Shown here: in pieces, positions 11,729 to 21,020 of the stretch
Layout: each line of letters starts with the position of its first letter
Position numbering within the stretch: the stretch's first letter is position 1
Assembly: GCA_031256035.1 (NCBI GenBank)
Contig: JAIRRJ010000087.1
Location: forward strand, 1-64,000
DNA from: Treponema sp.
Lineage (GTDB): Bacteria > Spirochaetota > Spirochaetia > Treponematales > Breznakiellaceae
Length of the DNA stretch: 64,000 bases
Reading direction: 5' to 3'
Made by a program: the position numbers and the translations under genes
Notes under the pieces: model-generated
Told to the model about the DNA's origin: nothing
Seen by the model: the letters and a program-made list of their open reading frames with translations, nothing else
Databases searched by the model: none

Positions 11729-14272
11729 TCACTTCAAAAAGTGGCGCAGTTTTTCCATGACTATGTTGAAATCCAGAGGTTTCCCGATATGATCATCCAT
11801 TCCCGCTTCCAAACATCTGTTGACATCCTCCACAAACACATTTGCGGTCATGGCAATAATTGGCGCGCGCTTATATGGTTTTTTGTTTTTTGCCTGTTCG
11901 ATTGCGCGTATGCGGCGTGTTGCATCGTAGCCGTCCATTTCGGGCATTTGCACATCCATCAAAATCAGCTCGTATTTTTCCGGCGCTTCATTGAATATAC
12001 GAACAGCTTCCGCTCCGTTTTCCGCACACTCTATCTCAAGTTGTGTCGGCTCAAGCAGGGCTAATACAATCTCGCGGTTAATCTCGACATCTTCAGCTAA
12101 CAGTATGCGCCGCCCTGCGAATATTCCATCAATTTTGAGCTGCGCTTCTTCTGTGTGCCGCTGCCCCAGACCCAGCGATTCGCTTATAGCATCCGATATT
12201 GCCGATGGGAACAACGGCTTTGACAGGAATTTATCAACACCCGCTTTTTTGGCTTCTTCCGCTATTTTGCTCCATTCGGCGGCAGATATCATAATCACCA
12301 CGGAATTTGCGGATACCCGCCCTTTCAATTCTCTTGCTAGTTGAATGCCGTCCATGCCCGGCATTTTCCAGTCAACAAAATAAATGTGGCAGATGCCGTT
12401 CTGCGCAACAAGCCGGAGCGCTTCGTCTCCACTGATGGCAGTTTCGCAGAATATGCCAAGCCCCTGAGCAATTTCGTTGAAATATTTCAAAATATCGGGA
12501 TCATCATCCACTGCCATGATGCGGACATTGCCCCAATTGATGCCGCGCGCCAAAAGCCTCTGTCTTTCCACACTGCCCCGTTTCATCATAAAGGTGAAGG
12601 CAAAAGTAGAACCCTTTTCAGGTTCGGAGTGAACCCAGATTTTGCCGCCCATTAGTTCAACAATGTTTTTGGAAATCGAAAGACCCAGCCCCGTACCGCC
12701 GAATTTGCGCGTTGTGCTGGACTCGGCCTGTTCAAATGAAGTGAACAGACGTTCCTGTTGAGCGGGGTTGATGCCAATCCCGGTGTCAGTTATTGAAATC
12801 TGCACGGTACAGCCTTTTTCATCTTCTTCCACAAAGCGCGTATTGAGGGTGATTGAACCCTGTTCAGGCGTGAATTTAATCGCGTTTCCAAGCAGATTTG
12901 TAATTACCTGCGCCAGCCGCTGGTCATCACCGATCATTGTTTTTGGGATGTCTCTGTCGATGTGTACTGTGAACTTGTGCTGTTTTTCATCCATGCGGAA
13001 GTTGACGACATTCACCACCCGTTGAAGCATTTTCTCGAAATCAAACTCATCCGGTACAAGTTCAAATTTGTTCGCTTCAATTTTTGACATGTCCAGAATA
13101 TCGTTGATTACGCCGAGCAGGTGGTTCGAAGCATCCTCAACTTTAGAAAAGCAATAATCCTTGCGTTCAGAGTTGGCGGCTGATTTTCCGATAGTGGTCA
13201 TGCCAATGATGGCATTTAACGGCGTGCGTATCTCATGGCTCATATTTGCCAGGAATGCGCTTTTGTGCCTGCTCTCCGTGTCCGATTTTTCTCTTGCCGC
13301 GTCAATGCGAATCAGAATGATGCTCAGCAGCACCGTAAACGCCGCGCCCAGCATACTGAGGATAGAAATCATGTTTGTCGCATTGTGATAGTATGGGCGT
13401 TTTGGCGCCACAAGGCCAAAATACCAGCCATTTGAAAGACGCCGGAAAAAAGCGACAGACTTTTCGCCTTTGTAACTCATCACCGAACGTTCGGAAATTT
13501 CCACTCCTTTTTGCAATTCATCCGCAAGATTTGAAATTGGGAGCGTTGGGTCATGCATGCTTCTGCCGACATAATCCTGGTTTTCATGGGCGAGGATTAT
13601 CAAATCCCTGCTAATCAACATTCCATAACCGCCCTGGGCCAATGATGTTTCGACAATTTCCCTTCCGAGGGTCGCCATCCTTATTCGAAGAACAATAACG
13701 CCCAGCAGGCGGCCTTCATCATCAAAAATACATTGTGAATATATTAGGACGGTTTCTCCTGTTATAATATCTTCATAAGACAGCGTTTCTGCAACATCGC
13801 CGTTGGCCGCGACAGCGTTTATGTACCAGGGACGTTCTTTAGGATGATAGCCGGCCAGCCGGTCCCAGACAAAACTTTCTATAAAGAAAGGGCCGCCGGG
13901 AAGCATTTCAAAATAACCTGCTATGCCCATGAAACAATTCATATGCTTTTCACTGGAAGCCATACTCTCGGCTATTTCATTAAAGTACCCATGTATCTTG
14001 TCCTCATAATCGCCGTGTAAAATCATGTTACGCACTGAATGTGCAATTATGTCCAACATTCCTGCATGTTCCTGGACATCGGACTCGGTTTTCGCCTGCT
14101 CAAAAGCAAGCACGGTCTCCGTGTTGCGAACCAGCTCTTTTTGTATGATCCTGCTTATGAAGAAATAGCTCAAAACTACCATCGCCGCAAATGCAAGCGC
14201 TGTGATCAGCAATTGTATATACAACGAACGTTTGGGCTTTATTTCCCGTATCAAGACATGTATTACTGACAT
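11729..14272 (-). CDS. membrane hybrid sensor histidine kinase with two receiver domains
   Basis: An 847-residue kinase. TM1 is at about residues 20-42, followed by a ~250-residue periplasmic sensor of the double-Cache type, TM2 near 300-322, HisKA with FLANMSHEIRTPLNAIIGM (phospho-His in the HE motif), and HATPase_c with TDTGIGI and GGTGLGLSISK. Two receiver domains follow: the first has VDDDPDI and phospho-Asp in VDWKMPGMDG, the second has AEDVEINREI and MDVQMPEMDG. No Hpt or output domain is present, so signalling must pass to another protein. The start ATG 14272 has AGAGAG upstream. It is separated by 9 bp from the following kinase gene on the same strand; the two look like paralogues. 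Confidence 0.93.
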   Translation of the reverse strand: MSVIHVLIREIKPKRSLYIQLLITALAFAAMVVLSYFFISRIIQKELVRNTETVLAFEQAKTESDVQEHAGMLDIIAHSVRNMILHGDYEDKIHGYFNEIAESMASSEKHMNCFMGIAGYFEMLPGGPFFIESFVWDRLAGYHPKERPWYINAVAANGDVAETLSYEDIITGETVLIYSQCIFDDEGRLLGVIVLRIRMATLGREIVETSLAQGGYGMLISRDLIILAHENQDYVGRSMHDPTLPISNLADELQKGVEISERSVMSYKGEKSVAFFRRLSNGWYFGLVAPKRPYYHNATNMISILSMLGAAFTVLLSIILIRIDAAREKSDTESRHKSAFLANMSHEIRTPLNAIIGMTTIGKSAANSERKDYCFSKVEDASNHLLGVINDILDMSKIEANKFELVPDEFDFEKMLQRVVNVVNFRMDEKQHKFTVHIDRDIPKTMIGDDQRLAQVITNLLGNAIKFTPEQGSITLNTRFVEEDEKGCTVQISITDTGIGINPAQQERLFTSFEQAESSTTRKFGGTGLGLSISKNIVELMGGKIWVHSEPEKGSTFAFTFMMKRGSVERQRLLARGINWGNVRIMAVDDDPDILKYFNEIAQGLGIFCETAISGDEALRLVAQNGICHIYFVDWKMPGMDGIQLARELKGRVSANSVVIMISAAEWSKIAEEAKKAGVDKFLSKPLFPSAISDAISESLGLGQRHTEEAQLKIDGIFAGRRILLAEDVEINREIVLALLEPTQLEIECAENGAEAVRIFNEAPEKYELILMDVQMPEMDGYDATRRIRAIEQAKNKKPYKRAPIIAMTANVFVEDVNRCLEAGMDDHIGKPLDFNIVMEKLRHFLK

Positions 14273-14281
14273 ATATTCTCT

Positions 14282-17200
14282 CTAGTTAATGTTACCACTT
14301 TTTTGCAAATATGTGCGCAATTTTTCCAAAACTATTCCAAAATCCAGAGGTTTCCCCACATGGTCATTCATTCCGGCTTCCAGACACCTGTCAATATCTT
14401 CCTTAAATACATTAGCGGTCATTGCAATAATGGGGACTTGTTTCCCGGTTTTCCCTTTCCGTTCAGCTTCAAAAGAGCGTATGCGGCGTGTTGCATCGTA
14501 GCCGTCCATTTCGGGCATTTGCACATCCATGAAAATCATCCTGTATTTATCAGGTTTTTCAATGAACATATTGACGGCTTGTGTTCCGTTTTCTGCGCAG
14601 TCAATCTCCAGAAGCGTTGGCTCAAGCAGCGTCAGCACAATTTCGCGGTTAATCTCCACATCTTCGGCGAGTAGTATACAATGTCCCGCAAAAACGCCTT
14701 CGGTGATTTCATCCGCCTGCTGTTCTTTGGACATGTCATGAATGTCCTGATTTTTCTCCTCGCCGCGCTTTGCCTGAATCGTAAAAGCAAAAGTAGAACC
14801 CTTTGCAGGTTTGGATTCGACCCATATTTTTCCGCCCATCATTTCTACAATGTTTTTGGAAATCGAAAGCCCCAGCCCCGTGCCTCCGTATTTGCGAACA
14901 GTACTGCTCTCCGCCTGCTGGAAAGACTGGAAAAGTTTTGCCTGCTGTTCGGGGCTTATGCCGATTCCAGTATCTGTTACCGAAACCTGTATGATGCAGG
15001 AGGAACCGTTGGTTCCTTTCGAACCTTCGGTACCCTTGGAATCTTCTTCTCCCAAAAAGCGCGCGTCAAGGGTGATGCTGCCATTTTCGGGTGTGAACTT
15101 GACCGCGTTTGCCAGCAGATTTGTAACGACCTGCGCCAGCCGCTGATCATCCCCGATCAGAATTTTTGGGATGGCGGGATCAACATTCACCAGAAGCTTT
15201 TGCTTTTTTTCTTCTACGCGGAAGTTTATGACGCTCACTACCTTTTGTAACATTCTCTCAAAATCAAATTCGATGTATGACAATTCAAGCTTGTTCGCCT
15301 CGATTTTTGACATGTCCAGCACATCGTTGATTACGCCGAGCAGGTGCGTTGATGCGTCTTCAATCTTGGTTAGCGCGTAATTTTTACGCTCCATGTTCGC
15401 GGCGTTTTTTCCAATCGCCGTCATGCCGATTATTGCGTTCAGCGGCGTACGCATTTCATGGCTCATGTTTGAAAGGAACTCGCCTTTCGCCCTGCTTGCC
15501 ACTGTCGCCTTTTGAAGAGCATCTTTCAGCATTGTGTTGTAAATGTCGCGCATGATAACGCCCGCGATGGTACTTGCAGTCATAGCGACAAAAGATTTTT
15601 CGTTATATGTCCAATGGCGGGGCGTATGACATTGCTCTACAGCCAAAGCCCCCCATAAATGCCCTTCAACATAAAGCGGCGCGCAGATGAACGCACATAC
15701 ATCAGCAGTTAACAGCTCATGAAATGCCTCAACAGGGCTTGCGGCAATATCCTCGCAGGAAATTACCGGTACGGTAGAACAATCGGGCAGCCATTCGGGG
15801 AAGTTGGATCTAATCAAGCCCAGCAAATCGAATTTTACCATGCGCGGCGGCAAACCGTCTGCAGACCAATGATGCGCAGGCCGGGTTGTGTTCTGCTTGT
15901 AATCAATACTAAAGATAAACACCAAAGATACATTATGATAATGACCCAGCTTTGCGATGGCTTCTTTGGCATGCGTTTCAGAATCGCCGGAGGCAATAAA
16001 ACCTCGTGAGATTTCGGAAATTAATTCCTGCTGCTCCAGCCGGATTTTAAGCAGTTCGCTTTGTTCGCGTATGTTTTCCATCATCTTTTTGGAGCCGCGC
16101 AAATCGTATTTGAACGAAATAAGAAATTTTTTACCCTTGTGTGTTACCTGCGTCAGCGTGTTCTCCACCGGGATCAACTCACCTTCAAGCGACTTGTGTA
16201 CCCACTCGTAAACAGTTTGTCCGCTGGTGAACGCTTCATCCATCTTCGTCTTTGCTTCTTCAAAGGATTCAATCCCGCCGGACTGCGATTCGGGTACAAA
16301 ACGCTCCCAATAATTCTCCAACAGGTATTGTTTGTCAGTGCAGGCAAACATCCGCATTGTGGCGTCATTGCAGTCAATTGCGTGCATGTCCTCATCAAAA
16401 AGCACATACGGAATGGGGCTTGCTTCCGCTATGGCGCGGGTCTGTTCATTCGCATTGGCTACATTTTGTTCCATTTCGGAGCGTATAACTATGTTCACGC
16501 ACAACAAGCCCGCCGAGCGCATCATATCAACATTGTCATTCTCAAAGTAACGTTCGTTATGCCGGTCTTCAAAAAGCATGAAGCCCCAAAATACGCCGTT
16601 GATAAACACCGGCATGATAAAGACCGATACAACTCCGAACGCTTTCAGCATGGCGGCTTCGGGCAGAAGGTGTACCGGACTGTTAATCACTTCGCCGCTT
16701 GACAACAGCCCTTCCCAGCGCGGCGCAAGCCTCGCGTATGTAACATCTTCGAGTCCCGGCGTTGGTTCGGTAGTTCCGCCCGATTTACGGTCCCACCTGT
16801 AAATCTGCGATACATGCAAACCATCGCTTTTCATGAAATTGCGCCAGATGGACATTCTGTCCAAATTGAGCATGTCGGCAATCAATGTAACGCCCGCCGT
16901 CATGGTATTCTCGAAGGATGCGCTGCTTTGTGAAAGGAAGATGATTGCAGCTTCATTCAGTGTTTCCGTCATTTTTTCCCGGCGGATGAGAGTAGTCAAA
17001 ACATCGTTGGCGTTTTTTGATGTTTCAGCCCTGATGATAGCGTTGGCGCATAAACGAGCGGCTGAATACAGTAAATCGATACAGCCTTCGTCAAAATATT
17101 CATCACGGGTATGGTCCTGCAGGGCAACACCGCCCCAAAATTCTCCGTGCGTGAAAACGGGCACGATCAATATCGACTTAATGCCGAACATATCCAGAAA

Positions 17201-17557
17201 GGCGCTCTCATCTTCCGTCATGCCGCTTTTCCTGATTTTTACGTTTTCGCCATTCGACAATATTGATATCCAGCGCGCCAGTACCGGTATGTCCGGCAAA
17301 ACCTTTAAGTCTTCATCTAAAAAAATCAGCCCGCCTTCCGCTTTGTCCCAGCGGTATATCTGCCCAAACCGTTTTTGCCCGTCAATATCCAGCCTGCGGT
17401 AAAAAACGACGCGATCCAGACCAACCGCTTCTGCTATCGGTCTGATGCCGTTTGTCATTACATCGTCAAATGTTTTTTCATCATGGGAGGTAAATATGTC
17501 TATCGCTTTATTCAAGGCGTCAACTATGGCGGCTCGGCGTTCGGATAAATTTTTCAT
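14282..17557 (-). CDS. soluble GAF/PAS hybrid sensor histidine kinase
   Basis: A 1091-residue cytoplasmic kinase with no membrane segment. Order: GAF-like domain (about 1-185), GAF-like (200-365), PAS (375-490, ANEQTRAIAEASPIPYVLFD), GAF (505-660), HisKA (FLSNMSHEMRTPLNAIIGM), HATPase_c (TDTGIGI, GGTGLGLSISK) and one receiver domain (AEDVEINREI, MDVQMPEMDG). The first two GAF domains share FWGG/FWGF-type motifs and look like an internal duplication. A low-complexity insert, repeating KGT with Ser and Glu, sits inside the ATPase domain just before the TDTG motif. The gene is upstream of the 847-residue kinase in one transcription unit. The start ATG 17557 has only a weak CGGA; a TATAAT lies 9 nt upstream, so the leader may be very short. 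Confidence 0.92.
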   Translation of the reverse strand: MKNLSERRAAIVDALNKAIDIFTSHDEKTFDDVMTNGIRPIAEAVGLDRVVFYRRLDIDGQKRFGQIYRWDKAEGGLIFLDEDLKVLPDIPVLARWISILSNGENVKIRKSGMTEDESAFLDMFGIKSILIVPVFTHGEFWGGVALQDHTRDEYFDEGCIDLLYSAARLCANAIIRAETSKNANDVLTTLIRREKMTETLNEAAIIFLSQSSASFENTMTAGVTLIADMLNLDRMSIWRNFMKSDGLHVSQIYRWDRKSGGTTEPTPGLEDVTYARLAPRWEGLLSSGEVINSPVHLLPEAAMLKAFGVVSVFIMPVFINGVFWGFMLFEDRHNERYFENDNVDMMRSAGLLCVNIVIRSEMEQNVANANEQTRAIAEASPIPYVLFDEDMHAIDCNDATMRMFACTDKQYLLENYWERFVPESQSGGIESFEEAKTKMDEAFTSGQTVYEWVHKSLEGELIPVENTLTQVTHKGKKFLISFKYDLRGSKKMMENIREQSELLKIRLEQQELISEISRGFIASGDSETHAKEAIAKLGHYHNVSLVFIFSIDYKQNTTRPAHHWSADGLPPRMVKFDLLGLIRSNFPEWLPDCSTVPVISCEDIAASPVEAFHELLTADVCAFICAPLYVEGHLWGALAVEQCHTPRHWTYNEKSFVAMTASTIAGVIMRDIYNTMLKDALQKATVASRAKGEFLSNMSHEMRTPLNAIIGMTAIGKNAANMERKNYALTKIEDASTHLLGVINDVLDMSKIEANKLELSYIEFDFERMLQKVVSVINFRVEEKKQKLLVNVDPAIPKILIGDDQRLAQVVTNLLANAVKFTPENGSITLDARFLGEEDSKGTEGSKGTNGSSCIIQVSVTDTGIGISPEQQAKLFQSFQQAESSTVRKYGGTGLGLSISKNIVEMMGGKIWVESKPAKGSTFAFTIQAKRGEEKNQDIHDMSKEQQADEITEGVFAGHCILLAEDVEINREIVLTLLEPTLLEIDCAENGTQAVNMFIEKPDKYRMIFMDVQMPEMDGYDATRRIRSFEAERKGKTGKQVPIIAMTANVFKEDIDRCLEAGMNDHVGKPLDFGIVLEKLRTYLQKSGNIN

Positions 17558-17643
17558 TCCGTATACATTATACTACAAATGTCAATTTGGTATCTTGAAA
17601 TTTCCTGCGAAAAAAAGAATACTAAAAACATGGAGAAGAATAA

Positions 17644-17865
17644 ATGAAAGCTACAATTATTGGATTTGTGATTATTGCCGCCGCTGTTTTTGCGATTCTG
17701 CCGAAAGACGTAATCGGTTTTGGGCTTGGCTGGGGAATTTATGTTTTGGCGTTTCTTAAGGGCGGCCTTCCGGTTATCGCGATTTTGGTCGGCATTATCG
17801 CGATTTTCATCGGCATTGCCGACATGAAAGACCGCGCCGAAGCGAAAAAAGAAAACGCCCAGTAA
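17644..17865 (+). CDS. small two-helix membrane protein
   Basis: A 73-residue protein with two hydrophobic helices (residues 4-20, after which comes a Gly-rich FGLGWGIY stretch, and 42-60) and a charged C-terminal tail (DMKDRAEAKKENAQ). ATG 17644 has GGAG upstream. It is followed 25 bp later by the NuoE-like gene and could be the first gene of that operon. No family is recognised; a link to the redox complex is positional inference. Confidence 0.6.
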   Translation: MKATIIGFVIIAAAVFAILPKDVIGFGLGWGIYVLAFLKGGLPVIAILVGIIAIFIGIADMKDRAEAKKENAQ

Positions 17866-17890
17866 TATCGGGTAATTCACACTGACAATC

Positions 17891-18382
17891 ATGCAGAGCC
17901 TCTCTAAAGACCAAGTGTTAAGAATAACGGAACGTTACGGAAACGATCCGCAGCAGCTTATTGCTGTGCTGCTGGATATTCAGGCTGCCTCCGGCAAAAA
18001 CTGTGTAGAAAAACAGTGGGCGGAATTGACCGCGAATGTTCTGAATGTTCCCCTCTCCAAAATTTATGATGTACTGACTTTTTACGCCATGTTCAGCACC
18101 GAGCCGCGCGGCGAGTATGTTATCGAAATCTGCAAAAGTACGCCATGTCATTTTACCCGCGCCGAAGAAGTTGCACGGTGGTTTGAAGCGGCGGCAGGGA
18201 TCAAAATGGGCGAGACAACTGCGGACGGTAAGCTTTCGCTTTTTCACACAAGCTGCGTAGGCGCGTGTGACATTGGGCCAGCGGTGAAAATCGGGGACGA
18301 TGTATTCGGCAATCTGACCGAAGAAAAAGTGAAGGCGCTGGTACAGTGCTGCCGTGAAGGGAAGCATCTATGTCAAAATTGA
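17891..18382 (+). CDS. NuoE/HydC-like [2Fe-2S] subunit of an NADH-linked redox complex
   Basis: A 163-residue thioredoxin-fold [2Fe-2S] protein. Ligands are C81 and C86 (CKSTPC) and C122 and C126 (CVGAC), the standard NuoE/HydC pattern; the N-terminal helical part includes VPLSKIYDVLTFYAMFS. In NADH-dependent [FeFe] hydrogenases and complex I this subunit sits next to the FMN/NADH subunit, whose gene here overlaps by 13 bp. Length is normal. No ribosome-binding site is evident before ATG 17891. C-terminal CC and CQN cysteines are extra and probably not ligands. Confidence 0.92.
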   Translation: MQSLSKDQVLRITERYGNDPQQLIAVLLDIQAASGKNCVEKQWAELTANVLNVPLSKIYDVLTFYAMFSTEPRGEYVIEICKSTPCHFTRAEEVARWFEAAAGIKMGETTADGKLSLFHTSCVGACDIGPAVKIGDDVFGNLTEEKVKALVQCCREGKHLCQN

Positions 18383-19635
18383 TTAACCTATTGATACAGG
18401 GCGCGGACTGTTGCGATCCCCTTTCGGTAAGCGAGTATGAAAAAGCGGGAGGTTTTGCCGCGTTGAAAAAAGCCGCCGCCAGTGCCCCCGAAGAAATTAT
18501 CGCCGAAGTGAAAAAGGCAAAGCTGCTGGGGCGGGGTGGCGCGGCGTATCCCGCAGGCAGCAAGTGGGAACATTTGCTGCATATCGAAGAAACCCCCAAA
18601 TATATTGTGTGCAATGCCGATGAAGGCGAACCCGGCACTTTCAAAGACCGGCTGATTATGGACAAGCTGCCGTTGAAATTGCTGGAAGGGATTATCATTG
18701 CGGGTTTTGTGTTTCGCGCGAAAGCGGGTTATATTTATGTGCGCGGCGAATACCGCAAGCTCCAGAAGCGGCTCCTTACGGCAATTGAAAATGTCCGCGC
18801 CGCAGGTTTTCTTGGTAAAAACATACTCGGCACCGGTTTTGATTATGACATTCATGTGATAACAGGGGCGGGTGCGTATGTCTGCGGCGAAAATTCCGCG
18901 CTTCTCAATTCCACCGAGGGCAAGGTGGGCAGGCCGCGCATCAAGCCGCCGCATTTGGCGGAAGTGGGGTTGTTCCTTCAACCGACACTGGTCAACAATG
19001 TCGAGTCCTTTGCCAACATTCCGCTCATCGTTAACATGGGCGGGGACGCCTACCTGCAACAGGGTCATCCCGATTCCGGCGGGAGCAAACTAATTTGTCT
19101 TTCGGGGCATTGCGAAAATCGCGGTGTTTTTGAAATTCCGCTGGGCAAACTGACATTGCGTGACGCGATTTACAATCCCGAAATTGGCGGCGGCATAGCA
19201 GATAACAAGAAACTTAAGTTTTTTCACTTGGGTGGACAGAGCGGCTCCATCGGCAGTGTCGATCAACTGGACACGGTTTACAGTTACACGGATTTAAGAA
19301 AAGCCGGATTGTCTGTCGGCTCCGGGGCAATAGTGGTCATGGACGAAAGTGTCTCAATCCTTGAATACCTGAAAGGCGTAACCGAGTTTTTCATTCACGA
19401 GTCCTGCGGCAAATGCGTACCATGCCGCGAAGGAAACCGCCAGATACTTGTGATTTTGCAGAAACTTTCCGTGCTGGGCGCGGCAACATCCGGCGATCTT
19501 GATACCCTGCGTCGGCTGATTCGCACAATGACGGACGCTTCATTCTGCGGATTGGGTCAAACAGCCGCTGCCGCTTTGAACAGCGCCTGGAAACAATTTA
19601 AGGCGGAATTTGAAGCAAATGTGGGGAGAAAATGA
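18370..19635 (+). CDS. NuoF/HydB-like NADH- and FMN-binding subunit
   Basis: A 421-residue diaphorase subunit: Gly-rich FMN/NADH loop GRGGAAYPAGSKW (54-66), CNADEGEPGTFKDR (81-94), SLBB region, and the [4Fe-4S] motif ESCGKCVPC with ligands C346, C349, C352 and C393. It oxidises or reduces NAD(H) and passes electrons through Fe-S clusters to the partner subunits. It is the short, NuoF-sized form: it lacks both the N-terminal thioredoxin-like domain and the C-terminal ferredoxin domain found in many bifurcating HydB/HndC subunits. The usual CGEE motif reads CGEN here. It overlaps the genes on both sides (13 bp and 4 bp), so the three subunits are translationally coupled. Confidence 0.93.
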   Translation: MSKLINLLIQGADCCDPLSVSEYEKAGGFAALKKAAASAPEEIIAEVKKAKLLGRGGAAYPAGSKWEHLLHIEETPKYIVCNADEGEPGTFKDRLIMDKLPLKLLEGIIIAGFVFRAKAGYIYVRGEYRKLQKRLLTAIENVRAAGFLGKNILGTGFDYDIHVITGAGAYVCGENSALLNSTEGKVGRPRIKPPHLAEVGLFLQPTLVNNVESFANIPLIVNMGGDAYLQQGHPDSGGSKLICLSGHCENRGVFEIPLGKLTLRDAIYNPEIGGGIADNKKLKFFHLGGQSGSIGSVDQLDTVYSYTDLRKAGLSVGSGAIVVMDESVSILEYLKGVTEFFIHESCGKCVPCREGNRQILVILQKLSVLGAATSGDLDTLRRLIRTMTDASFCGLGQTAAAALNSAWKQFKAEFEANVGRK

Positions 19636-21020
19636 GCCATCATAAGCCGGATCCGAATATAAATGTTAATTTGACGATTGACGGGCAGCCGGTAACCGTT
19701 CCCGAAGGGACGCGAATTCTTGAAGCCGCAAAAAAAGCGAATATTCACATTCCTACCCTCTGCGACCATCCTGATCTTTGCAAGCGTGCGGTGTGCCGCG
19801 TCTGCGTAGTGGAGTGTGATGGCAGGGGCAAACTCGCGGCAGCCTGCGCAAACGATGTGTGGGAGGGAGTTAACATTGTTACCAATAATCAGCGCCTCCT
19901 TGCCATCCGCAAAACAATCGTGGAACTCATCCTCGCGAACCATCCGCAGGAGTGCCTCACGTGCATACGGAACACAAAATGCGAACTGCAATCGTTAGCT
20001 GAAAGTTTCGGCATCCGCGCCTCTGTTTTCAGCCGCAGCACAGACAACAAGCCGCCGGTAATTGAAAGCGAAGTCCTTGTCCGCGACATGGAAAAATGCG
20101 TCAAATGCGGACGCTGTGTTGAAGCCTGTCAGGAAGTTCAGACCATCCGGGCGATCAATTCATCCTGCCGTAGTCACAAATACGAAATCTGCACCCCGTA
20201 CAAACAGTCCTTAAGCGAAGGCCCCTGTGTTTTCTGCGGACAATGCGCGGCGGTATGTCCTGTTGGCGCGATTTATGAACATGACCAAACCGCCGATGTG
20301 TGGGCAAGTCTCAACGATAGTGGGCGGTCTGACCACTCACGAGTGGTCGGACAAGTTTCTCCGCGTTTGGCTGATGCCCTGAATGAGGAGTTCGGTTTTG
20401 CCGAAGGGACAATCACCACCGGAAAAATTGTTACCGTTCTCAAACAGCTTGGTTTTGATCAGGTTTTTGACGCGAAAATTGCCGTTGCTCAAGCCGAGCA
20501 AGCGCAAAATGATGAAGTTCAGGCGCGAATTAAAAACAATGGCAAGTTGCCAATGATAACTGGATGTTCAGCTGGTGTCGTCAATTTTGTAAAATATTTT
20601 TATCCCGATTTGACAGCTCATCTTTACACCGGAAAAAGACCCCGGCAAATTTTCGCGGATTCGATCAAAACTGAATACTCTAAAACTGTGGGAATTGATC
20701 CAGCGAAAGTTACCTCGGTCTCATTAACGCCTTGTCTTGCTGCAAAATATCAACAAGGCACATCCGACAAGACAGATATGGCTCTTACTGCCGGGGAACT
20801 TGCGCGGATGATCAAACTTGCGGGAATACAGATCAGCGCCCTGCCTGAAAGCCCCTTCAGCGCAAGCGTCGCTGCTCCGTCAAACCAAAACAGCTCCGTG
20901 AAAAAAGCGACCATTCATGGTTTTGCAGATGCCCGCAAAGTTATGGAAGCCATCAGAAAGGGCGAATGTGACGCACAATGGGTGGAAATTGTAAGCTGTC
21001 CGGCTGACAAGAAAAATTAA
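19632..21020 (+). CDS. HydA-like [FeFe]-hydrogenase homologue with defective H-cluster site
   Basis: A 462-residue protein. The electron-relay part is complete: [2Fe-2S] ligands C44, C55, C58, C72; His-type cluster H104, C108, C111, C117; two ferredoxin clusters C156/159/162/166 and C199/202/205/209. The hydrogenase domain follows (RLADALNEEFG, then KIVTVLKQLGFDQVFD), but its three H-cluster motifs are altered. L1 reads TGCSAG where TSCCPG is usual, so the ligand Cys becomes Ser313. L2 reads TPCLAAK, keeping C368. L3 reads SCPADKKN and then ends, keeping C456 but losing the second Cys and the usual tail. The FGATGGVMEAA block is also missing. H2 chemistry is therefore unlikely; the protein may link NAD(H) to ferredoxin or another partner. 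The next gene starts inside its stop codon, so this is not a simple frameshift. Confidence 0.9.
   Translation: MSHHKPDPNINVNLTIDGQPVTVPEGTRILEAAKKANIHIPTLCDHPDLCKRAVCRVCVVECDGRGKLAAACANDVWEGVNIVTNNQRLLAIRKTIVELILANHPQECLTCIRNTKCELQSLAESFGIRASVFSRSTDNKPPVIESEVLVRDMEKCVKCGRCVEACQEVQTIRAINSSCRSHKYEICTPYKQSLSEGPCVFCGQCAAVCPVGAIYEHDQTADVWASLNDSGRSDHSRVVGQVSPRLADALNEEFGFAEGTITTGKIVTVLKQLGFDQVFDAKIAVAQAEQAQNDEVQARIKNNGKLPMITGCSAGVVNFVKYFYPDLTAHLYTGKRPRQIFADSIKTEYSKTVGIDPAKVTSVSLTPCLAAKYQQGTSDKTDMALTAGELARMIKLAGIQISALPESPFSASVAAPSNQNSSVKKATIHGFADARKVMEAIRKGECDAQWVEIVSCPADKKN
20327..20352. repeat. 12-bp hairpin inside the HydA-like gene
   Basis: GTCTGACCACTC and GAGTGGTCGGAC flank a 2-nt centre, forming a near-perfect inverted repeat with one T-G pair. 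It encodes part of the linker SGRSDHSRVVG between the ferredoxin clusters and the hydrogenase-like domain, where homologues as I recall are a few residues shorter. It may be a small palindromic insertion kept in frame. Confidence 0.55.

Follow-up and report, generated by a model that had tools for sequence, protein, structure and literature searches.

What does a hydrogenase operon do for its host when the site of hydrogen chemistry has gone and the path that carried the electrons has been kept? The question is raised by a stretch of 64,000 nucleotides of Treponema sp. (assembly GCA_031256035.1, contig JAIRRJ010000087.1, positions 1 to 64,000 of the forward strand), here called the window, where three overlapping open reading frames (ORFs), nuoE, nuoF and a hydA-like gene, form an operon. 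We hold it on balance probable that this operon encodes a complex derived from a hydrogenase, no longer a hydrogenase itself, which transfers electrons in connection with NADH. The argument is drawn from what can be read in the sequences: the architecture of the operon and its conservation, the erosion of the domain that once held the active site (the H-cluster), a concerted loss of cysteines within it, and a contrast in selection between this domain and its partners.

The first gene (17891..18382, +) codes for a NuoE-like subunit of the HydC type, with 163 amino acids (aa), the Pfam domain 2Fe-2S_thioredx and the [2Fe-2S] ligands C81, C86, C122 and C126. The second (18370..19635, +) codes for a short NuoF-like subunit of 421 aa (Complex1_51K and NADH_4Fe-4S), the place of flavin mononucleotide (FMN), NADH and one [4Fe-4S] cluster (C346, C349, C352, C393). 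The third (19632-21020, +) codes for a HydA-like protein of 462 aa, with Fer2_4, NADH-G_4Fe-4S_3, Fer4 and Fe_hyd_lg_C. Its N-terminal part, HydA-N (residues 1-222; 19632..20297, +), has the ligands of a [2Fe-2S] cluster (44/55/58/72), of a His-ligated [4Fe-4S] cluster (H104/108/111/117) and of two further [4Fe-4S] clusters (156/159/162/166 and 199/202/205/209). An earlier note on this DNA had described the operon with these domains and with all its relay clusters intact, and every cysteine that it listed is there. All four cluster cysteines are found in each of the 21 NuoE copies and 25 NuoF copies that were aligned, and the ligands of HydA-N are unchanged in 25 aligned copies out of 25.

The rest of the HydA-like protein (residues 223-462 and the stop; 20298..21020, +) is an H-cluster domain under relaxed constraint, still recognizable by its match to Fe_hyd_lg_C (PF02906; 162 bits, profile positions 2-238 of 245). 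The best NCBIfam model, that of the NADH-dependent group A6 [FeFe] hydrogenases, gives 438.7 bits, below its cut-off of 765, and the group A model 230.8 bits, below 405.95. Set against an intact relative, the protein lacks 49 consecutive residues following residue 419 and a further 77 at the C-terminal end. The junction lies at 20888..20889 (+), where residues 423-471 of the Deltaproteobacterial copy in L049 have no counterpart; the GGVMEAA block (at 430 in that copy) lies inside the missing piece, so that the FGATGGVMEAA-type motif is gone, as had been reported. Three cysteines remain: C312 in the L1 motif (TGCSAG; codon 20565..20567, +), C368 in L2 (TPCLAAK; 20733..20735, +) and C456 in L3 (20997..20999, +), after which the chain ends (VSCPADKKN-stop) without the second L3 cysteine. 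Block, second L3 cysteine and C-terminus, all expected of a catalytic group A [FeFe] hydrogenase, are thus missing together.

On one point the account has to be corrected. The earlier note rightly saw that C368 and C456 are kept and that the second L3 cysteine is not, and it took Ser313 for another lost ligand, arriving at two. However, L1 reads TSCSPGW in ten of ten intact orthologues from Deltaproteobacteria and Ca. Adiutrix, in a Coprothermobacter homologue and, by alignment, in HydA1 of the solved entry 7q4v, which we take to come from Acetobacterium woodii. Since intact relatives carry it too, Ser313 is, to judge by these alignments, an ancestral residue, inherited and no ligand loss of its own, and the count of two fails. 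In the part of PMC4284687 available to us, moreover, the definition of L1 permits C or S at this place, and a Cys-to-Ser variant at CpI position 300 is discussed.

Could the window copy simply be a lone decayed gene, as homologues with complete motifs in the same species might indicate? The genome (a 3.12-Mb draft in 120 contigs, 94.87% complete, the window sitting on a contig of 145 kb) contains four PF02906 proteins, the window copy among them, and it does encode an intact, full-length HydA (a 610-aa ORF). This protein is a paralogue, accompanied by a 603-aa HydB and a NuoE. Together with the maturase HydF, the one maturase searched for, it makes hydrogen chemistry available elsewhere in the genome. 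The eroded form itself is present in 19 genomes, and the operon is for this reason not a lone decayed gene. All carriers belong to one spirochaete order: 17 of the 39 genomes searched in the genus of the window, to which sister genera add G150 and G152. Of 291 genomes sampled evenly across the order, 11 pass E 1e-110, nine of this genus and the same two others. Every HydA-like copy retrieved together with its start has NuoF immediately upstream, either whole or truncated at the end of a contig, and NuoE is present wherever the contig extends far enough.

Intact relatives were provided by a scan of the collection, which gave 14 named loci: ten from Deltaproteobacteria or Ca. Adiutrix, three from Treponema and one from Coprothermobacter. 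In all ten of the first set HydA is of full length (588-594 aa) with every motif, and stands with a NuoE and a short NuoF (426-429 aa; one ORF reaches 471 from an upstream start); the Coprothermobacter locus has a 596-aa HydB. Three loci repeat the DNA of other genomes in the set (L052 is G050, L060 is G040, and L062 is G152, also called bin57) and were counted once; the Deltaproteobacterial L051, L057 and L059 entered motif and column counts and were left out of trees. In the tree the spirochaete copies lie to one side of a weakly supported branch (61/50), which does not establish a single transfer into spirochaetes.

Within the spirochaetes the H-cluster domain is eroded in 19 copies of 19, to different degrees. 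Fourteen copies, called keepers here, have retained C312, C368 and C456, all three of which are missing from the other five. The proteins of G050 (568 aa), G150 (524 aa from ATG) and G022 (517 aa), keep the L1 and L2 cysteines and both L3 cysteines, with most of the C-terminus retained in G050 and the GGGQP motif in G150. In all three the GGVMEAA block is broken or missing, and in the remaining copies block, C-terminus and GGGQP have gone. A cysteine follows C456 at variable spacing in the tail of 12 of the 14 keepers, the window copy and G012 having none. One might argue from G050, G150 and G022 that the protein has remained a hydrogenase, its H-cluster pocket being unusual. This we regard as very improbable; it is conceivable at most where erosion is least, and not in the window copy: an intact GGVMEAA block is found in none of the 19 spirochaete copies, and five of these have no ligand-type cysteine left at the three places.

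The way in which the three cysteines disappeared is informative. Kept in all keepers and in ten of ten copies from Deltaproteobacteria and Ca. Adiutrix, they are lost in all five losers (G048, G023, G013, G049 and G152), and no copy is mixed; in the losers the protein ends 0-2 residues before the place that C456 would occupy. Thirty-three columns of the domain are at least 93% conserved over the keepers and the ten intact copies, and of these just the three cysteine columns have disappeared from every one of the five losers. None of the 29 non-Cys columns is lost in this way, 19 being kept in all five and 24 in at least four; a further cysteine, C446, which is not among the known ligands, persists in four of the five. 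On a tree built from NuoE, NuoF and HydA-N, the H-domain being excluded, parsimony requires a minimum of three loss events. The topology that holds the five losers together is rejected by the approximately unbiased test (p-AU 1.3e-6), as are those that unite the four losers of the genus (0.0025) or place G152 with G049 (1.2e-4), p-values that are optimistic because the constrained groups were named after the trees had been seen. G150 is absent from the earlier trees, including that of the first p-value, and is present in the later topology tests, in column counts, in identity means and in the comparison of neighbours. When three losses were placed at random according to branch length, 0.1% of draws reproduced the observed pattern for two sites, and not one of 200,000 did so for three. 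Wholesale decay of the domain would also lose sites together, but the retained columns speak against it. The behaviour of C312, C368 and C456 as a unit suggests a cofactor, possibly a [4Fe-4S] cubane by itself, that may have outlived the hydrogen chemistry and been repeatedly dropped.

Selection tells a similar story. Among 18 spirochaete copies (G012, whose two fragments were treated apart, is omitted) the mean pairwise identity falls from 79.0% in NuoF (136 pairs) to 69.6% in HydA-N and 42.6% in the H-domain (the last two over 153 pairs each), whereas the two parts of HydA are equally conserved in the intact Deltaproteobacterial and Adiutrix set (84.5% and 84.2%; 10 copies, 45 pairs). The ratio of non-synonymous to synonymous divergence (dN/dS, Nei-Gojobori) is 0.17-0.38 for the H-domain in eight spirochaete pairs, as against 0.03, 0.05 and 0.10 in three Deltaproteobacterial pairs; for NuoE, NuoF and HydA-N it is 0.02-0.17, most values being 0.04-0.17, with the exception of HydA-N in one pair considered below. 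By these measures the spirochaete H-domain is evolving faster than its partner subunits, unlike that of the Deltaproteobacteria. The earlier claim that selection has preserved the operon and the electron path while the hydrogen site went is therefore borne out by ligand invariance, by dN/dS and by the contrast in identity. The same data bear on the view that we are witnessing the slow decay of a redundant hydrogenase, the remaining subunits having little function. The progressively shorter and more variable H-domain would fit it, as would the intact-type HydA found in 13 of the 17 carriers of the genus; yet the strong purifying selection on NuoE, NuoF and HydA-N, relay ligands kept in every aligned copy, and unbroken spirochaete copies that remain open frames of 440-568 aa make it improbable.

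If electrons still flow, what does the complex exchange them with? The window NuoF has T/K at its NADH site (DEGEPGTFKDR) and GGQSG, and is without the A/M and GGPSG of bifurcating enzymes, all of which, together with extra clusters, are found in the HydB of the same genome. Its last 60 residues contain one cysteine, those of HydB nine, and Pfam recognizes no N-terminal or further cluster domain in it, the clusters B2-B5 that mark BfuB in the Bfu family (the HydABC-type bifurcating enzymes) being missing. According to the signatures of the beta subunit (A-x-M, GGPSG) given in the accessible text of PMC7311640, two of three sites tested are non-bifurcating, in keeping with the short, non-HydB form that had been recognized at the outset. 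The nearest kin in this respect are the non-bifurcating NADH-dependent [FeFe] hydrogenases of the Hyd1ABC type, described in that text with a NuoF-like beta subunit without GGPSG and with a T/K NADH site. The window NuoF agrees with them in T/S and K/S/A at the NADH site, in having no GGPSG and in having no extra cluster domains; it differs in the FMN site, where they have Tyr, and its HydA-like partner in the H-cluster site, which is complete in their alpha subunit. Hyd1ABC-type enzymes are active hydrogenases, whereas the window protein is without second L3 Cys, GGVMEAA block and C-terminus; theirs is the probable ancestral type of the operon. Non-bifurcating NuoF homologues are described in the accessible part of PMC9304861 as oxidizing NADH and not interacting with ferredoxin, so that the NADH-ferredoxin exchange once proposed for this complex is possible and not favoured by its NuoF type.

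It had also been thought that no such arrangement was known. A precedent does exist, HylABC, which associates with FdhF2 in the NAD-dependent formate dehydrogenase of Clostridium acidurici; the accessible portion of PMC6085437 describes its HydA homologue as devoid of the conserved L1, L2 and L3 motifs, and the window protein matches that published description. The nearest published parallel to the operon, HylABC nevertheless has FdhF2 as its partner, and it is presented there as bifurcating and confined to Firmicutes, whereas the window NuoF is short and without bifurcation signatures. On this model the trimer would couple NADH to a separate catalytic subunit, a dehydrogenase or reductase encoded elsewhere. 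Redox genes do adjoin some copies: G001 and G022 each have an aldo/keto reductase as neighbour (of the Fe-S kind in G001), G023 a flavodoxin and G049 a hemerythrin. Nevertheless, neighbour families are common to at most five of the 19 loci, and PF00384, the molybdopterin oxidoreductase family, is unmatched in the window genome and in 16 of the 17 carriers of the genus (drafts, 67-100% complete), which leaves a coupling to FdhF2 unsupported; a formate dehydrogenase partner is rejected for the window genome, where no candidate enzyme is seen, and a partner enzyme of any other kind appears unlikely. A role as input arm of complex I is likewise rejected, because its 49-kDa subunit (PF00346) is matched in none of the 39 genomes of the genus and in 11 of 14 controls. 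Compensation for a missing Rnf fails as well, rnfC being above cut-off in 34 of the 39 genomes, that of the window included, as does a link to acetogenesis (CdhC in 3/17 carriers versus 6/22 non-carriers, p 0.70). A link to nitrogenase is weak: nifH passes its cut-off in 4/17 carriers, none of them the window genome, versus 1/22 non-carriers (p 0.15), or in 5/17 if one partial match is counted (p 0.07). No Rex-like site (TTGT-8 to 10 bases-ACAA) was found upstream of nuoE in 20 upstream stretches, two of them shorter than 300 bases.

We may then picture the following history. The ancestor would probably have been a non-bifurcating NADH-dependent trimeric [FeFe] hydrogenase, with a short NuoF and an L1 of the TSCSPGW type, such as is still intact in Deltaproteobacteria and Ca. 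Adiutrix. In the spirochaetes the first loss would have been that of the surroundings of the diiron part of the H-cluster: the GGVMEAA block to begin with, followed by GGGQP, by the C-terminus and by the second L3 cysteine, which disappeared or lost its regular spacing. The three remaining cysteines probably still hold a plain [4Fe-4S] cubane, and all three would later have been lost in at least three lineages, the fold being kept. Because the ligands are conserved, NADH is expected to reduce the FMN of NuoF, passing electrons to the NuoF cluster and on to those of HydA-N, from which they would leave for a soluble partner that docks to the HydA-like subunit and accepts them, be it flavodoxin, ferredoxin or a redox enzyme encoded elsewhere; the direction may also be the reverse. 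We favour an acceptor unlinked to the operon because PF00384 is unmatched in all but one of the carriers of the genus, PF00346 in every genome searched, and no neighbour family extends beyond five of the 19 loci. A hydrogenase would thus be turning into a pure electron-transfer machine, first by loss of the diiron pocket, with the cubane surviving as a relay on three cysteines (four with the variable tail cysteine), then by removal of the whole site at least three times within a preserved fold, and the outcome, in Treponema-type spirochaetes, would be an NADH:acceptor oxidoreductase of a new class. To this complete scenario we grant somewhat less than an even chance.

Several observations weigh against this interpretation. 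In the least eroded pair, G022 and G050, constraint on HydA-N is relaxed almost to the level of the H-domain (dN/dS 0.28 versus 0.33), and the ratios are rough in the wider pairs because many dS values exceed 1. The FMN-site residue, placed by motif alignment, is Ile (GSKLICLSG), or Val in some relatives, which fits neither the Phe of bifurcating enzymes nor the Tyr of non-bifurcating ones. The cluster attributed to the remaining cysteines is deduced from their co-loss. A small carrier as acceptor would not have the backing of precedent, in so far as the non-bifurcating homologues are said not to use ferredoxin. Finally, the surroundings of the operon do not point to an acceptor gene: within 8 kb, the operon excluded, no gene family is shared by more than five of the 19 loci, in a comparison where many loci are cut by contig ends and the genes of G022 are masked by a longer antisense ORF. 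The two families that reach five, in different sets of loci, are a 412-aa gene and a TPR protein (223-309 aa) that follows the operon (L037:3466-4146, L039:11141-11833, L040:1329-2000, L082:4317-4991, L062:9483-10412). In G023, whose copy is without the three ligand-type cysteines, a flavodoxin-like gene (L036:3256-3726) starts 16 bp after the HydA-like gene, a possible candidate for the acceptor.

Another role would dispense with substrate turnover, the trimer reporting the NADH/NAD+ state to a regulator. In the window two large hybrid histidine kinases of the dCache and GAF/PAS types (11729-17557, -) lie upstream and divergent from the operon, and response-regulator or kinase genes flank it in G023, G047 and G048, with one near G051. 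Such genes are common in spirochaetes, however, the window kinases match the G023 neighbour in the receiver domain only (31-32% identity), and a receiver-type family is common to 3 of the 19 loci. Pfam finds no signalling domain (PAS, kinase, MCP) in the three proteins of the operon, which sets them apart from hydrogen sensors, and we consider a redox sensor quite improbable.

Other trimers in the literature resemble the operon in part. HydABC of entry 7q4v provides, with HydA1, the best solved match to the window protein and the same L1 as the intact relatives, but its H-domain is intact (583 aa) and its HydB has 599 aa. Among the trimeric [FeFe] hydrogenases of Melainabacteria, the accessible text of PMC3787301 reports a gut enzyme without L2 and L3 and, in ACD20, two enzymes with TSCSPGW and an altered L3; they are reported there as confurcating hydrogenases, and are not presented as a conserved set devoid of hydrogenase function. 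For termite-gut Breznakiellaceae spirochaetes, a 2026 paper (PMC13067680) names, in its available part, a group A3 confurcating hydrogenase and the hydrogen-dependent CO2 reductase (HDCR), not the eroded trimer. We found no description of a spirochaete eroded trimer among titles and abstract openings, in a literature with thin coverage of subscription journals. The present operon offers a graded natural series, from the intact hydrogenase to the loss of the three remaining ligand cysteines of the H-domain, in one operon and mostly in one genus, so that the way in which a complex metallocofactor disappears from an enzyme becomes testable, as does the question whether the cubane half of the H-cluster could function alone. 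There is also a practical consequence, since hydrogenase counts based on PF02906 will score eroded copies as enzymes of H2, the window copy passing the cut-off. Conversely, primers for L1 and L3 like those of a termite survey, whose forward L1 primer reads as TSCC in the available text of PMC4070709, are expected to miss them. A gut origin of the host, probably the gut of termites, is suggested by the Ca. Adiutrix companions, a lineage described from termites (PMC9137090, as far as its accessible text goes).

Fusions of hydrogenase and chemotaxis domains also occur in this material. Two proteins of the window genome join Fe_hyd_lg_C, 4Fe-4S and MCP domains (G000:C50, L003:274-2427, -; G000:C1, L004:1264-3345, +) and are probably H2 chemotaxis receptors. 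Beside eroded spirochaete operons no such fusion was noticed in the part of the neighbours scanned. One lies downstream of an intact Deltaproteobacterial operon (L053:5172-6962, with a 77% relative at L055:8738-10525), which suggests H2 sensing beside an H2 enzyme. As to the immediate borders of the window operon, a HAD phosphatase gene, not found beside any other operon copy scanned, begins where the hydA-like stop codon ends, sharing its final base, and an ORF of the minus strand (17554-17892) overlaps the start of nuoE.

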